Source of the DNA: Synechococcus sp. 1G10 | Lineage (GTDB): Bacteria > Cyanobacteriota > Cyanobacteriia > PCC-6307 > Cyanobiaceae | Direction of reading: 5' to 3' | Assembly: GCF_002252625.1 (NCBI RefSeq) | Contig: NZ_NQKW01000002.1 | Location: 124,001-188,000 of the forward strand | Length of the DNA stretch: 64,000 nucleotides | In this document: positions 41,542 to 46,681 of the stretch, one piece after another | How positions within the stretch are numbered: the first letter of the stretch is position 1 | How the letters are laid out: each line of letters opens with the position of its first letter | Notes under the pieces: model-generated | The model's database searches: none | Told to the model about the DNA's origin: nothing | Seen by the model: only the letters and a program-made list of their open reading frames with translations | Made by a program: the position numbers and the translations under genes

Positions 41542-42648
41542 ATGAACGCCCGGGAATCGGTGCTGGTGCTGAACGCGGGCAGCTCCAGTCTCAAGGCGGG
41601 GCTGTTCGCGGCGGATGGCCGCTGCCAATGGCGCGAGCAACGCAGCTGGCAGCCGGCCTCCGGCACCATGGAGGAGGTCCTCGACGGCTGGCTGCCAGCC
41701 GCCCTGGAGTCCTGGAATGGGGAACCGCTGTTGGCGGCCCACCGGGTGGTCCATGGCGGTGAGCGCTTCACCGCCCCCACCCTCTTGAGCTCCCCGGTGC
41801 TGGACGCTCTGGAGGCCATGATCGCCCTGGCACCGCTGCATAACAGACCTGCCCTGGCCGTGATGCGCTGGCTGAGCTGCTGGAATCCCCAGTTGCCCCA
41901 GTGGGCCTGCTTTGACACGGCCTTCCACAGCACCCTGCCGCCGGAGGCCCGCACCTATGCCCTGCCGGCGGCCTGGCGGGAGCTGGGCCTGCGCCGTTTC
42001 GGTTTTCACGGCCTCAACCATCAGCACGTGAGTGAAACCGTCAGTCGTCGCTGGTCTGACAAGCACCAGCCCCCTACTCGGCCGCTACGGCTGATCAGTT
42101 GCCACCTCGGTGCCGGCTGCTCGCTCTGCGCCATCCGGGATGGGCGCAGTGTGGCCACCACCATGGGTTACACGCCCCTGGATGGTCTGGTGATGGCAAC
42201 CCGCAGCGGCTCGATCGACCCCGGTCTGCTGCTGCATTTGCTGCGGCAAGGGCTGACGCCCGAGCAACTGGAGCAGGGGCTGCAGGGGGCGAGTGGCCTG
42301 CTGGGGCTCTCCGGTGGCCTCAGCTCCGATATGCGCCAGCTGCGCCAGGCCGCCAGCGACGGTCACGACGGCGCCAGCCTCGCCCTTGCCGTGTTTCGCC
42401 ACAGCCTGCTGGAGGGCATCGGGGCGATGGCGGCAAACCTGGGTGGTGTGGATGTGATCGCCCTCAGCGGCGGTATCGGTGAGCATGATCACGCCCTGCT
42501 GGCGGATCTTGAGTTGTCCCTGGGCTGGCTCGGGCCCATTGAGCTGGTGCGGGTCCCCGCCGATGAGGAGGGCCTGATCGCACGCGAGTGCCTCAGCGCA
42601 GCAGGCGGGATGCAGGTCGGGCCCGGCCGCTGCTGGCCCACTGCTTGA
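41542..42648 (+). CDS. ackA: Acetate kinase
   Basis: AckA interconverts acetyl phosphate and acetate with ADP/ATP. The 368-residue ASKHA-fold protein shows VLVLNAGSSSLKAGLF, AHRVVHGGERF, FDTAFHSTLPPEARTYALP with the catalytic Asp, FHGLNHQHVSE, SCHLGAGCSLCAIRDGRSV and the C-terminal IALSGGIGEHDHALL. It is shorter than E. coli AckA but retains the catalytic residues I can place. ATG 41542 follows xfp by two bases. The 3' end overlaps ycf46 on the other strand by 56 bases. Confidence 0.94.
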   Translation: MNARESVLVLNAGSSSLKAGLFAADGRCQWREQRSWQPASGTMEEVLDGWLPAALESWNGEPLLAAHRVVHGGERFTAPTLLSSPVLDALEAMIALAPLHNRPALAVMRWLSCWNPQLPQWACFDTAFHSTLPPEARTYALPAAWRELGLRRFGFHGLNHQHVSETVSRRWSDKHQPPTRPLRLISCHLGAGCSLCAIRDGRSVATTMGYTPLDGLVMATRSGSIDPGLLLHLLRQGLTPEQLEQGLQGASGLLGLSGGLSSDMRQLRQAASDGHDGASLALAVFRHSLLEGIGAMAANLGGVDVIALSGGIGEHDHALLADLELSLGWLGPIELVRVPADEEGLIARECLSAAGGMQVGPGRCWPTA

Positions 42649-44074
42649 GCGCATCGAGCTGTTCGCGGGCCGTGCGCGAGAGGGGAACCAGGTCACTGGC
42701 GGCGGCGATCAGATCCGCCTCGCCGAATTCGCGGTGCACCGCAAAGGCCAGGTGCATCGCCTCCACCACCGTCTGCTCCAGTTCGGCACCGGAGAATCCC
42801 GCGGTGCGGTCCACCAGCACCTCAAGGGGAATGCGGTGCTCGGGGCGGCGGCGGCGCAGCTGCAGGTCGAGAATCGTGCGCCTTTCGGCGGCATCGGGCA
42901 GATCCAGCAGGAAGATCTCATCGAAGCGCCCCTTGCGCATCAGCTCCGGCGGCAGGCTCTCCACCCCGTTGGCGGTGGCCACGACGAACACCGCCGAGCG
43001 CTTCTCCGCCATCCAGGTGAGCAGGCTGGCCAGCACCCGCTGGCTGGTGCCGCCATCGCTGCGGCTGTCACCGCCGAATCCCTTGTCGATTTCGTCGATC
43101 CAGAGCACGCACGGTGCCATGGCTTCGGCGCGGCGAATCATGTCGCGGGTACGGGCTTCGCTGGCGCCCACCAGGCCGGCGAACAGCCGCCCCACATCCA
43201 GGCGCAGCAGCGGCATGGCCCAGCTGTGGGCGATCGCCTTGGCGGTGAGTGACTTACCGGTTCCCTGGGGACCCACCAGCAACACTCCCCGTGGCAGGGG
43301 CAGGCCATAGGCGGCGGCCTCATCGCTGAAGGCCAGTCGCCGCTGCTCCAGCCAGTGCTTCAGCGCCTCCAGCCCGCCGATGTCGGCGGGGCTGGCCTCT
43401 GTGGGGCAATACTCCAGCAGCTCGCTGCGGGCGATTGCCTGGCGCTTCTCCTCCAGCACCTCTGCCAGATCGGGCTCCCCCAGCTGGCCGCGCCGAGCCA
43501 GGGCCCGCGCCGCCACCTGACGGATGCGCTGTTCGCTCAGGCCGCTGCAGCAGTGGGTGAGCTGCTCGAGCACACCGGGGCTCAGGGGGTGGCCGCAGGC
43601 CTGAGCGATGCTCTCCAGCAGAGAGCTGATCTCACCGGCATCGGGCAGGGGCAGGTCGAGGATCGTGAGGCACTCTTCCAGTTCCCGCGGCACCTGCCAT
43701 TCCGGGGCGGTGATCACCAGGGTGCGCGGTTTCTGGCGCAGGCTGGTGGCCAGGTTGCGCAGCCGGCGGCCGATGCCGGGGTCGTCGCAATAGCGGTGGA
43801 AATCGAGCAGCAGCAGGATCGCCGCCTGATCCGGGGGCAGGCTCTCGATCGCCTCCAGGGCTCCCATTGGATTGCGGGTGGCCTCACCCTCGCGGTTCGG
43901 CAGCCCCTGGAGCCCCTCGACGAAATCCCAGCGCAGCAAGGTGCGCTGGCCCAGGCGCTGGGCGGCGCGCTGGAGCAGAGCAGCGATGCGCTCCTCCTCG
44001 GGGCTGCGAATCCAGAGGATCGGCGCGCGGGCACGGATCAGCAGATCAAGCTGGTCGGCCCACTCCTCGCTCAT
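42593..44074 (-). CDS. ycf46: AAA ATPase Ycf46
   Basis: The 493-residue protein has an N-terminal degenerate P-loop-like domain (ILWIRSPEEERIAALLQRAA, ILLLLDFHRYCDDP). A full AAA domain follows: Walker A LLVGPQGTGKSLTAKAIA, Walker B CVLWIDEIDKG, sensor-1 VFVVATANGVESLPPEL and arginine finger RKGRFDEIF. It matches Ycf46, a plastid- and cyanobacteria-conserved ATPase linked in Synechocystis to carbon-uptake regulation. ATG 44074 overlaps the upstream gene by four bases (ATGA). Confidence 0.9.
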   Translation of the reverse strand: MSEEWADQLDLLIRARAPILWIRSPEEERIAALLQRAAQRLGQRTLLRWDFVEGLQGLPNREGEATRNPMGALEAIESLPPDQAAILLLLDFHRYCDDPGIGRRLRNLATSLRQKPRTLVITAPEWQVPRELEECLTILDLPLPDAGEISSLLESIAQACGHPLSPGVLEQLTHCCSGLSEQRIRQVAARALARRGQLGEPDLAEVLEEKRQAIARSELLEYCPTEASPADIGGLEALKHWLEQRRLAFSDEAAAYGLPLPRGVLLVGPQGTGKSLTAKAIAHSWAMPLLRLDVGRLFAGLVGASEARTRDMIRRAEAMAPCVLWIDEIDKGFGGDSRSDGGTSQRVLASLLTWMAEKRSAVFVVATANGVESLPPELMRKGRFDEIFLLDLPDAAERRTILDLQLRRRRPEHRIPLEVLVDRTAGFSGAELEQTVVEAMHLAFAVHREFGEADLIAAASDLVPLSRTAREQLDALKQWASSGRARPASRLLR

Positions 44075-44613
44075 CGCCAATGGCGCAGGGCCGACCAGCG
44101 GGGATCGATGGGGTCTCCCCCGCCGGTCGTGGAGGAGGCTTCCTGTCTGGCCTCAGGTTGCTCTGGCAGGTCCGGTCCGGGGCAGCCCGGGCCGCAGTCG
44201 TTCCGCAAGGGCAGCTGAAGGCTGAGTTGCTCAAACAGCCACCGGGCCGGATCGAAGCTGCCGCGGGGATCGAGAGCCTCGATCAGCTCGCTTGCGTCGA
44301 GGTCATCGCCGAGTTGATCGGCATCTCCGAGCCAGAGTCGCTCCTCCCCCCGGAAGTGCAGGGTGTGGTTGTAGGTGCTCAGGCAGCGGTCGCAGCAGAG
44401 GGTGACGATGGTTTCGGCTTCCCCCTCCACTTCCAGCACGGGCTCGCCGTGGCGGACGCTCAACCAGCCCCGCACCGGCGTGAGGCTCTCGAGATCCTCC
44501 AGCTGCTGGTCGACAGCCCACAAGCGTGGTTCCTGCAGCAGGCGTAGCTCCTGCAGGGGCATGGGCCGCAGCAGGGATGGTTCAGGCAACGGCGAGGGAC
44601 GCCGCGTCATCAC
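44071..44613 (-). CDS. YceD/DUF177 family protein
   Basis: The 180-residue protein has an N-terminal beta domain ([20 protein letters not shown]). The conserved cysteine pair [20 protein letters not shown] is followed by acidic stretches and a second Cys motif [12 protein letters not shown], probably binding metal. DUF177/YceD proteins take part in 23S rRNA maturation in bacteria and plastids. The gene is within the yidC-ycf46 run, overlapping both neighbours by four bases. Start is GTG 44613 or ATG 44610. Confidence 0.85.
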
Positions 44614-45746
44614 TTCTTGCCTTTGGGCTCAAAGGGCAGCCGCTCAGACCCACCAGCGGTGGCCGCCACCGCCACTGTCTGCTGGGCGAGCTGTTGATTG
44701 AGGATGTCCTGGAGGTTCTCAGGCAGGGCCTCCCGGCTGAGCAGGAAGGTCTGCAGGGCCTGGAAGATGTTGGCAACCACCATGTAAAGCAGCACCCCAG
44801 CAGGCAGCGGGAAGAAAAGGAACATGCCGGTGATCATCACCGGCGTGATCTTGTTGGCCGTCGATTGCTGAGGGTTAGGCGGCATCCCAGATCCAGAGAG
44901 GATCTGGGAAATGAACAGGCTGGCTCCGAAGGCCCCCACCAGGATGGCGATGTCCCAGTTGATCGCACCATCGGTGTAAAAGCCCACCTGACCGAGGGCC
45001 TTGATGAACAGGAATCCACTGCGGGCCGCCAGGCCGGGCACCGATGCTTCCACCGTTGCATCACCAGGGGCGATCGCCTCGATCAAACCTGACTCGCTCA
45101 CTCGCACCACGCCCTCGCCTTTGCTCACACGCCAGGACGGCGTGTACTTCGAGCCGTTCTCCACGCCCTCGAGCACGCTGCTGAAGGGTTGCCCGTCCTT
45201 GGTGTGCAGGTTCACCTGGGCTGAGTCGCCGATGCCCAGCTTGGTGCCGCCCTCCAGGCTGGCAACGACTGGCACGTGACTGGTTTCGGTGATGAAGATC
45301 GAGTGACTGGCACTGTTGAACGGCTTGATCTCCACCGCAGCGATCTGATCGGCCGGTAACACCTTGAGATTGAGGGTGTAGGGCACATCGGCGAAGGGTG
45401 AGCCGCGCAGGGTGGCGAACAGAGCGAACAGGATCGGCATCTGGACCAGCAGGGGCAGACAGCCGGCCAGGGGGCTGCCGAACTCCTTCATCAGCTTGCC
45501 CAGTTCCTCCTGTTGTTTCTGGGGATTGCTGGCGTACCGGCTCTTGATCTCAGCCTGACGCTTCTGCATCACGGGCTGAGCGATGCGCATGCGCCGTGCA
45601 CTACGGATCGAGCCTGCGCTCAGGGGGAAGAGGGCGAGCCGGATCACCACGGTGAGGGCGATGATCGCCAGCCCGTAACTCGGCACCAGCCCATAGAAAA
45701 AATCGAGGATGGGCAGAAGCAGGTTGTCGGAGATGTAGCCGATCAC
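44610..45746 (-). CDS. yidC: Membrane protein insertase YidC with an Ig-like insertion
   Basis: This is the insertase for thylakoid and plasma membranes, 378 residues from GTG 45746. Helix 1 is about 22-42 with [20 protein letters not shown]. The cytoplasmic loop includes [20 protein letters not shown], and the second helix follows [16 protein letters not shown]. Between helices 2 and 3 (about 163-238) lies a segment resembling a BIG2 Ig-like domain: [38 protein letters not shown] and [18 protein letters not shown]. Helices 3-5 contain [20 protein letters not shown]. The coupled gene order with rnpA and rpmH is standard. Confidence 0.94.
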
Positions 45747-45866
45747 AGCGGGGAGGCGGCAGAAGGGTGAGGGTTTGAACCAGTGTGCCCGAGCAGCTGA
45801 TCGGAGTGACGCCGATGCGGGCAAATCCCGTCCGGAGGCCTCGAACTGGCGGCCTGGGCCTGGGGG

Positions 45867-46295
45867 TCAGGCACTGGCCGGCTGGGAGTCAGCGAATCCT
45901 TTGTTTTCGGTTGGGGCCTTGGCGCCGCCACGGCGGGCCATCTGCTCGAGGATGTAGGCCTCGGTTTCACGGAAGCGGGGCATGGAGCGCATCTCGAGCT
46001 TGGCCCCGTCGCTGAGTACCAGCACCATGTCGCCCCAGGCGCCGAAGCCCCGGGGCACCGAGCGCACCTCCCGCACCTGGCTGTAGACCACCTGGGTCCG
46101 GTCACGGCCAAGCCAGCCACCGCTGACCGAAATCCGCCTGCTGGTGATGCGGAAGCGCAGCCAGAGGGCCCGCACGATCGCGCCGACCGCGAAGGGGATG
46201 CCGATCAGGGTGAGACCGAAGAGCAGGTTGAACAGCAGATCCCCCCGAGCCGGTCCCCCTTCGTAGAACGTGGTCTCGGTCACCTCGATGGTCAT
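45867..46295 (-). CDS. PH-domain (bPH2/YdbS-like) membrane protein
   Basis: The 142-residue protein has an N-terminal tail and two close hydrophobic stretches (LLFNLLFGLTLIGIPFAVGA). A bacterial PH-like beta domain follows: LRFRITSRRISVSGGWLGRD, then TQVVYSQVREVRSVPRGFGA, WGDMVLVLSDG and a C-terminal helix (RFRETEAYILEQMARR). ATG 46295 overlaps the rnpA stop by four bases. It sits between rnpA and yidC, where many bacteria have yidD. Function unknown. Confidence 0.85.
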   Translation of the reverse strand: MTIEVTETTFYEGGPARGDLLFNLLFGLTLIGIPFAVGAIVRALWLRFRITSRRISVSGGWLGRDRTQVVYSQVREVRSVPRGFGAWGDMVLVLSDGAKLEMRSMPRFRETEAYILEQMARRGGAKAPTENKGFADSQPASA

Positions 46296-46681
46296 CGACT
46301 CAGGCCTGCCTTGCGGAACAGCTCCGAACATTCTCCCAGCAAGGCCTCAGGACTGGCCTCAACGGAGCCTGGCTTGAGGCTGAGCAGCAGCCACAGGCCG
46401 TTGGGGTCAGCGGGCAATTGGCCGCAGCGCTCGTTCAGCCAGCCGTGCAGCAGGCGTCTGAGCCGGTTGCGCCTTACTGACCGCTTGCTCACTTTGGTAC
46501 TCACCACGACGGCGCAGCGGCAGCCCTGGAGCGGCACCTGGCCGAGGGGAGCACGCAACAGGGAGGGCTCACCGACCACGGAGCGAAGCACCAGGTAGGT
46601 GCCGTGAAAACGGCGGCCCTTGCGATAGAGGTGGTCAAAGGCTTTCTCGCCCCGCAGGCGCAGATCCCTGGGAAGGGCCAT
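46292..46681 (-). CDS. rnpA: Ribonuclease P protein component
   Basis: The 129-residue basic protein assists the RNase P RNA in tRNA 5'-end processing. The core has LRGEKAFDHLYRKGRRFHGT, then CRCAVVVSTKVSKRSVRRNR with the RNR motif, and a C-terminal helix (LLGECSELFRKAG). It lies 25 bases after rpmH and overlaps the PH-domain gene by four bases. This rpmH-rnpA pairing is nearly universal. Confidence 0.95.
   Translation of the reverse strand: MALPRDLRLRGEKAFDHLYRKGRRFHGTYLVLRSVVGEPSLLRAPLGQVPLQGCRCAVVVSTKVSKRSVRRNRLRRLLHGWLNERCGQLPADPNGLWLLLSLKPGSVEASPEALLGECSELFRKAGLSR

Follow-up and report, generated by a model that had tools for sequence, protein, structure and literature searches.

The window analysed here, a 64,000-nucleotide stretch of the Synechococcus sp. 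1G10 genome, carries on its minus strand the gene for the membrane insertase YidC, whose product contains a large extracytoplasmic insert within its five-helix core. The features to which we refer throughout are as follows (residue numbers are those of the 378-residue protein; numbers given for P0001 are 26 higher).

46292-46681: RNase P protein gene, a neighbour of yidC
45867-46331: gene for a bacterial PH-domain protein (bPH_2, 3.5e-14), flanked by the RNase P gene and yidC
44613-45746, minus strand: YidC membrane insertase gene, 378 amino acids, with the start codon GTG at 45744-45746 and the stop codon at 44610-44612
45357-45389, minus strand: leading beta strand of the insert, residues 120-130 (DSSP strand 121-130 in the full-length model; block mean pLDDT 87)
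45015-45392, minus strand: extracytoplasmic insert of about 126 residues (119-244), placed between core transmembrane helices 2 and 3 by loop alignments
45276-45278, minus strand: His157, present in 99% of 77 aligned rows and without conservation in nine Gloeobacterales-like rows
45033-45284, minus strand: predicted BIG2-type Ig-like domain, residues about 155-238 (ten-residue block pLDDT 74-90; VIA-align)
45144-45191, minus strand: short helical hairpin, residues 186-201 (DSSP helices 188-193 and 198-201), reduced in Gloeobacterales-like YidC
45003-45041, minus strand: [13 protein letters not shown], residues 236-248, the conserved junction leading from the Ig-like domain to the core
44071-44613: YceD-like gene, a neighbour of yidC
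42593-44080: AAA ATPase gene, a neighbour of yidC

The listed start of the PH-domain gene overlaps the end of the RNase P gene. YidC, of which this genome has a single copy, is encoded by the open frame 44610-45824 (minus strand), and comparison with its relatives makes the GTG listed above most likely its start. The protein matches the Pfam family PF02096 (60KD_IMP) at 5e-36 over P0001 positions 50-363 and passes the curated cut-off (35) with 124.6 bits. It also matches NF002734, the NCBIfam equivalog for cyanobacterial YidC, at 1.4e-190 over model positions 4-379 of 384; since this match is near full length, the insert already lies within the curated family and the gene is an ordinary one for a cyanobacterium. 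The full-length AlphaFold2 model superimposes on E. coli YidC (6al2_B) with a Z score of 17.3 and an rmsd of 2.8 over 196 residues. As judged from alignment and model, then, the gene product is an ordinary five-helix-core YidC plus an insert.

The preliminary description of this DNA had placed a BIG2-like Ig domain between helices 2 and 3 of YidC, and the insert does lie in the loop joining core transmembrane helices 2 and 3, where 143 residues separate the aligned flanking points (154/298 of P0001) versus 13 in E. coli (456/470 of 3wvf). The stretch that it gave for the domain, 45033-45260, corresponds to residues 163-238, the Ig-like part being about 155-238 and the whole insert larger (119-244). 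The sequence landmarks that it cited are likewise present on the minus strand, namely GDSAQVNL (residues 173-180, 45207-45230), the tryptophan of the following strand (W205, 45132-45134) and [21 protein letters not shown] (residues 214-234, 45045-45107).

The full-length AlphaFold2 model, computed with 57 sequences, is of moderate confidence overall (mean pLDDT 69), with block means reaching 74-90 across residues 121-240; modelled by itself, the insert has a pLDDT of 75.6. In both models, a leading strand and a linker are followed by a beta sandwich resembling BIG2, together with three short helices, two of which form one hairpin; a model lacking an Ig-like fold, which would have told against the preliminary description, did not appear. 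The Foldseek match of highest probability for the domain model was the Big_2-CBM56 protein 7quz (prob 0.99, E 0.15, 27% identity over 67 columns), and none of its Foldseek matches reached E<=0.001. VIA-align placed the phage SU10 tail and the Douge capsid in its top rows (Z 6.0-6.4, 6.4 being the best Z of any row). The rows with Z between 3.6 and 5.5 include the Big_2-CBM56 structures 7quz and 7r3t (Z 5.4-5.5), the Ig-like xylanase 4hu8, the Leptospira Big domain 2mh4, and chains of LigA, intimin, invasin and SbsC, which we take to be Ig-like; nuclear pore chains stand amid the Ig-like rows, at ranks 5 and 7. In the comparison list of the full model, residues of the insert match phage and bacterial Ig-like chains, and a search of solved structures returned no chain that matches YidC across the insert.

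At the level of sequence, profile A1, built from 12 inserts, matches the Hoc-like phage protein ORF90 (7x30_P) at 9.7e-5 over 49 positions, and, of the Pfam families, Big_2 (PF02368) alone has matches in two or more of the 12 insert sequences (4/12, best E 0.0028). The Big_2 match is confined to model positions 37-66 of 79 and scores 14.7 bits with the whole protein and 17.0 bits with the insert alone. The Big_2 profile search suggested in the preliminary description therefore left the insert under the curated gathering cut-off of 22.8, and for that reason we name the domain Ig-like and not a member of Big_2. A separate match, that of P0001 229-260 (residues 203-234, 45045-45140) to NCBIfam NF053514 (BLB8/JUQZ-1 family protein), has an E value of 1.2e-5 and 25.5 bits, below its cut-off of 40.

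It could be argued that the insert is not Ig-like at all and that its likeness to such domains reflects a common beta-sandwich arrangement. The moderate confidence of the model, the Foldseek E values above 0.001 and the unrelated proteins among the top VIA-align rows would all fit this view, as would the fact that VIA-align warns of a merely common arrangement for any Z below 8, the best Z of the domain included. Against it, profiles and fold comparison converge on bacterial Ig-like domains over overlapping residues, and we consider it very unlikely. Because the sequence and fold lines agree on overlapping residues, we accept that the main part of the insert very probably adopts an Ig-like, BIG2-type fold. 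The fold assignment made in the preliminary description thus stands, backed by the predicted structure, the fold comparison and the 7x30 profile match, but its kinship to Big_2 falls short of the Pfam cut-off and no single fold score is decisive.

In the source organism's class (the cyanobacteria proper; the class names are inferred), 377 of 388 genomes give a match to the insert profile, and on these sequence comparisons the extracytoplasmic insert is a standing feature of cyanobacteria and not a quirk of one genome. In eight of the 11 unmatched genomes, neither the full-length query nor PF02096 nor the second insert profile found a YidC at E<=0.001. Two others (G346 and G473) have matches to the full-length query (1.4e-13 and 5.2e-10) without a PF02096 match, and in the last (G557) the PF02096 match is limited to positions 1-61; a complete YidC was thus found in none of the 11, three of which have a weak or partial YidC alone. 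The stretch from SPF to FLFI measures 120-137 residues in 78 of at least 80 named loci, and the Prochlorococcus loci examined carry the insert. The preliminary description had framed its survey around picocyanobacteria; the class survey rules out that the insert is specific to them. That the insert is both Ig-like and class-wide we hold with high confidence.

As to the sequence sets used, A3 comprises 56 of the 80 named loci listed plus the window, 20 loci having been left out by choice, mostly as near-duplicates, and L119, L164, L165 and L170 being absent on account of a stop within the matched range; A4 comprises 55 named loci plus the window, L129 having been dropped for its variant motif. 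The in-frame stop in the YidC of L119 is probably a sequencing error, and sequencing errors probably also underlie the YidC pieces that lie in two frames in G323 (L104/L106). L135, whose contig title names a Chloroflexaceae MAG (SM1_2_4), carries a cyanobacterial-type, insert-bearing YidC, probably as a result of a binning error.

Three families (f47, f55 and f54, nine genomes) fall outside the other class members on the core tree, which was built without the insert and without L104-L106 and whose midpoint root serves for drawing only. Reaction-centre genes were found in all seven of these nine genomes that were tested and Psb27 in none of the seven, versus four of four other class members. 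The absence of Psb27 fits the statement in the available parts of PMC13174344 (a 2026 preprint) that Gloeobacterales lack this protein, and we infer that the three families are Gloeobacterales-like and name them so. All nine of their YidC sequences carry the insert, found at E 1.8e-14 to 7.7e-24 by a profile built without those rows, and its absence in Gloeobacterales is ruled out for these nine Gloeobacterales-like sequences. Their loops are 148-155 residues long versus 160-176 in the other class members compared, and the shortening falls largely in the two-helix hairpin 186-201, where all nine have gaps. Excerpts of PMC13174344 speak of 'missing amino acids' in Gloeobacterales and of 'two additional helix loops' in thylakoid-bearing cyanobacteria, one of which presumably corresponds to hairpin 186-201. 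Our data thus agree with the preprint on the hairpin difference, yet the domain itself is common to Gloeobacterales-like YidC as well.

Elsewhere in the phylum, among non-photosynthetic relatives, 31 loops were examined. Fifteen lack any insert, their whole loop measuring 44-85 residues; in 11 others the inserted sequence follows the FLFI motif, and the remaining five carry an insert at the cyanobacterial site. The 11 belong to families f31 and f39 (L065-L070, L073, L083, L086, L087 and L091). Homology of their insert to the cyanobacterial one is not supported, given its position after FLFI and an hhalign probability below 1% (8 of the 11 inserts used), and it appears to have entered the same loop independently. 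One f31 genome has, in addition, a second PF02096 match (L092, G173:C12:25192-25752; 5.8e-18) inside a 916-aa open frame.

The five inserts at the cyanobacterial site belong to family f38 (L060-L064), with reaction-centre genes in 0/5 of its genomes. By hhalign, the f38 insert matches the Gloeobacterales-like inserts with a probability of 79% (E 1.5e-5) and the other cyanobacterial inserts with one of 38% (E 3.5e-4), and when f38 rows are left out of the profile the five score E 6e-4 to 0.44, the weakest on a par with a chance hit on the insert-free L082 (0.5). The f38 matches with the second insert profile are not independent, because A1 holds two f38 rows. Probably, the f38 insert is related to the cyanobacterial one, and a single gain before the split of f38 from the class is possible. 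On the core tree a branch (99/89) separates f38 together with the class from the other sequences; f38 itself sits on a long branch (1.2), and its place in the tree is therefore unsure.

Conservation and dN/dS were assessed on 76 loci plus the window (77 rows). The dN/dS values, which come from 71 overlapping and non-independent pairs, are 0.148 for the insert, 0.206 for its Ig part and 0.047 for the core, a ratio of about four between Ig part and core; by this measure, the insert is under purifying selection that is weaker than that on the core and evolves faster. Invariant in the 77 rows are glycines 167, 210, 220, 228, 238 and 244, A240 and the segment F245-F247, and G238, A240, F245, L246 and F247 also stand at 100% in the nine Gloeobacterales-like rows; the positions conserved at 85% or more are chiefly glycines, prolines, H157 and the junction. 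This looser constraint and this set of conserved positions speak for the main rival to a specific function, namely that the domain is a structural spacer, there only to stabilise YidC on its extracytoplasmic side or to shield that side, without a specific partner. So do the 15 insert-free sequences among the 31 from non-photosynthetic relatives, and so does E. coli, which, as told in excerpts of PMC13174344, tolerates deletion of 90% of its own, different periplasmic domain with biogenesis and viability unimpaired. A spacer is, however, harder to reconcile with the retention of the insert across the class, where none of the genomes that miss it shows a complete YidC, and with dN/dS values well under 1, and we find this explanation rather unlikely.

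We propose instead that the Ig-like domain would sit over the lumenal or periplasmic mouth of the substrate groove and serve as a docking platform, with the unchanged core carrying out insertion. Such a platform might hold on to the lumenal parts of membrane proteins still being made, with D1 and other photosystem subunits as its obvious clients, or it might alternatively recruit extracytoplasmic assembly factors or SecDF. An extracytoplasmic location next to the groove would suit the domain for retaining such lumenal parts or assembly factors. In Synechocystis, YidC copurifies with ChlG, HliD and Ycf39, according to excerpts of PMC6175206, and a 2025 proposal, in the accessible part of PMC12142464, has nascent D1 attach to nearby Ycf39 on leaving SecY/YidC. 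The docking role is weakened by the tolerance of E. coli to loss of its periplasmic domain and by the limited room in chloroplast Alb3 (see below), and we advance it tentatively. Taken as a whole, the proposal of a class-wide insert whose BIG2-type Ig-like part would form a docking platform over the groove mouth seems to us moderately probable.

Binding by the domain of peptidoglycan, which the preliminary description raised beside binding of substrate proteins, or of carbohydrate is, by comparison, hardly credible. The thylakoid lumen holds no peptidoglycan, and no result of this analysis points to sugar or peptidoglycan binding. Such a role could be read from the near solved match 7quz, in which Big_2 is joined to the sugar-binding CBM56, but the title of that entry gives sugar binding to CBM56 and not to Big_2. 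Also counting against peptidoglycan is the location of YidC, said in parts of PMC13174344 to be the PratA-defined membrane and the thylakoids.

One joint reading of the comparative data would be that the Ig-like domain entered YidC before cyanobacteria proper and a non-photosynthetic sister family split and was refitted as thylakoids arose, the thylakoid-bearing lines gaining a fuller hairpin 186-201 and a near-invariant H157, and that YidC would thus act in the lumen as a receptor for photosystem assembly, responding to pH or metal and without counterpart in Gloeobacterales. We regard this reading as distinctly improbable. Because the domain is common to Gloeobacterales-like and thylakoid-bearing lines, its presence alone cannot explain thylakoids; the hairpin and H157 could be contributors.

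The YidC protein, the presence of the domain and the Gloeobacterales difference are already known, the latter two from PMC13174344 in the parts available to us. The survey of the insert and its identification as Ig-like appear to be new; apparently it had not been recognised as such before. In the literature searched, the scope of which excluded most subscription papers, the 2008 Slr1471 paper among them, no paper calls the cyanobacterial YidC insert Ig-like or BIG2, and the terms Ig-like, BIG2 and immunoglobulin do not occur in the main text of PMC13174344 as accessible to us. Cyanobacterial YidC contributes to the assembly of photosystem II, and a module that is compact, cleanly bounded and probably Ig-like lends itself to a precise deletion or swap experiment. 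The survey also refines the published proposal, found in excerpts of PMC13174344, of a domain difference between Gloeobacterales and thylakoid-bearing cyanobacteria, in that only the hairpin and some residues differ.

The present YidC and that of E. coli (3wvf, 6al2) have the five-helix core in common. In E. coli the P1 domain precedes this core, as stated in the accessible part of PMC8675477, whereas the cyanobacterial insert does not occupy that position and follows the second core helix (residues 119-244); judged by aligned position, the insert is the P2 loop in E. coli terms and not P1, which is the label that parts of PMC13174344 attach to the 'periplasmic domain' of cyanobacterial YidC that they describe. 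This bears on a further alternative, according to which the insert is a functional stand-in for P1 that docks SecDF or holotranslocon parts from another position in the chain. Both are extracytoplasmic YidC domains, and excerpts of PMC13174344 point to the E. coli YidC-SecDF interaction and to extra extracytoplasmic loops in phycobacterial SecD, but the preprint itself calls the interaction unconfirmed; with the difference in position also against it, we deem a P1 stand-in unlikely.

Chloroplast Alb3 is, like cyanobacterial YidC, a homologous insertase of the thylakoid membrane. Its fusion points, as given in the available part of PMC8733628, lie in two stromal loops (186 and 304) and in the first lumenal loop (231), which leaves 118 residues for two helices plus that lumenal loop and therefore too little for an Ig-like domain; Alb3, in comparable work, seems to manage without one. 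Excerpts of PMC2706819 report no close tie between Alb3 and cyanobacterial YidC, with a test that cannot significantly reject one. Either plastids lost the domain or, in the view of PMC2706819, Alb3 is not derived from cyanobacterial YidC. From Slr1471-type YidC (NF002734/PRK02654) the protein described here does not differ, being itself a member. Pfam Big_2 and the solved structures 7quz/7r3t, 7x30 and LigA 8gyr probably resemble the YidC domain in its predicted fold, with partial sequence matches to Big_2 and to 7x30, and the YidC domain differs from Big_2 in that it scores under the Pfam cut-off, matches part of the model and occurs as a single insert inside a membrane insertase.
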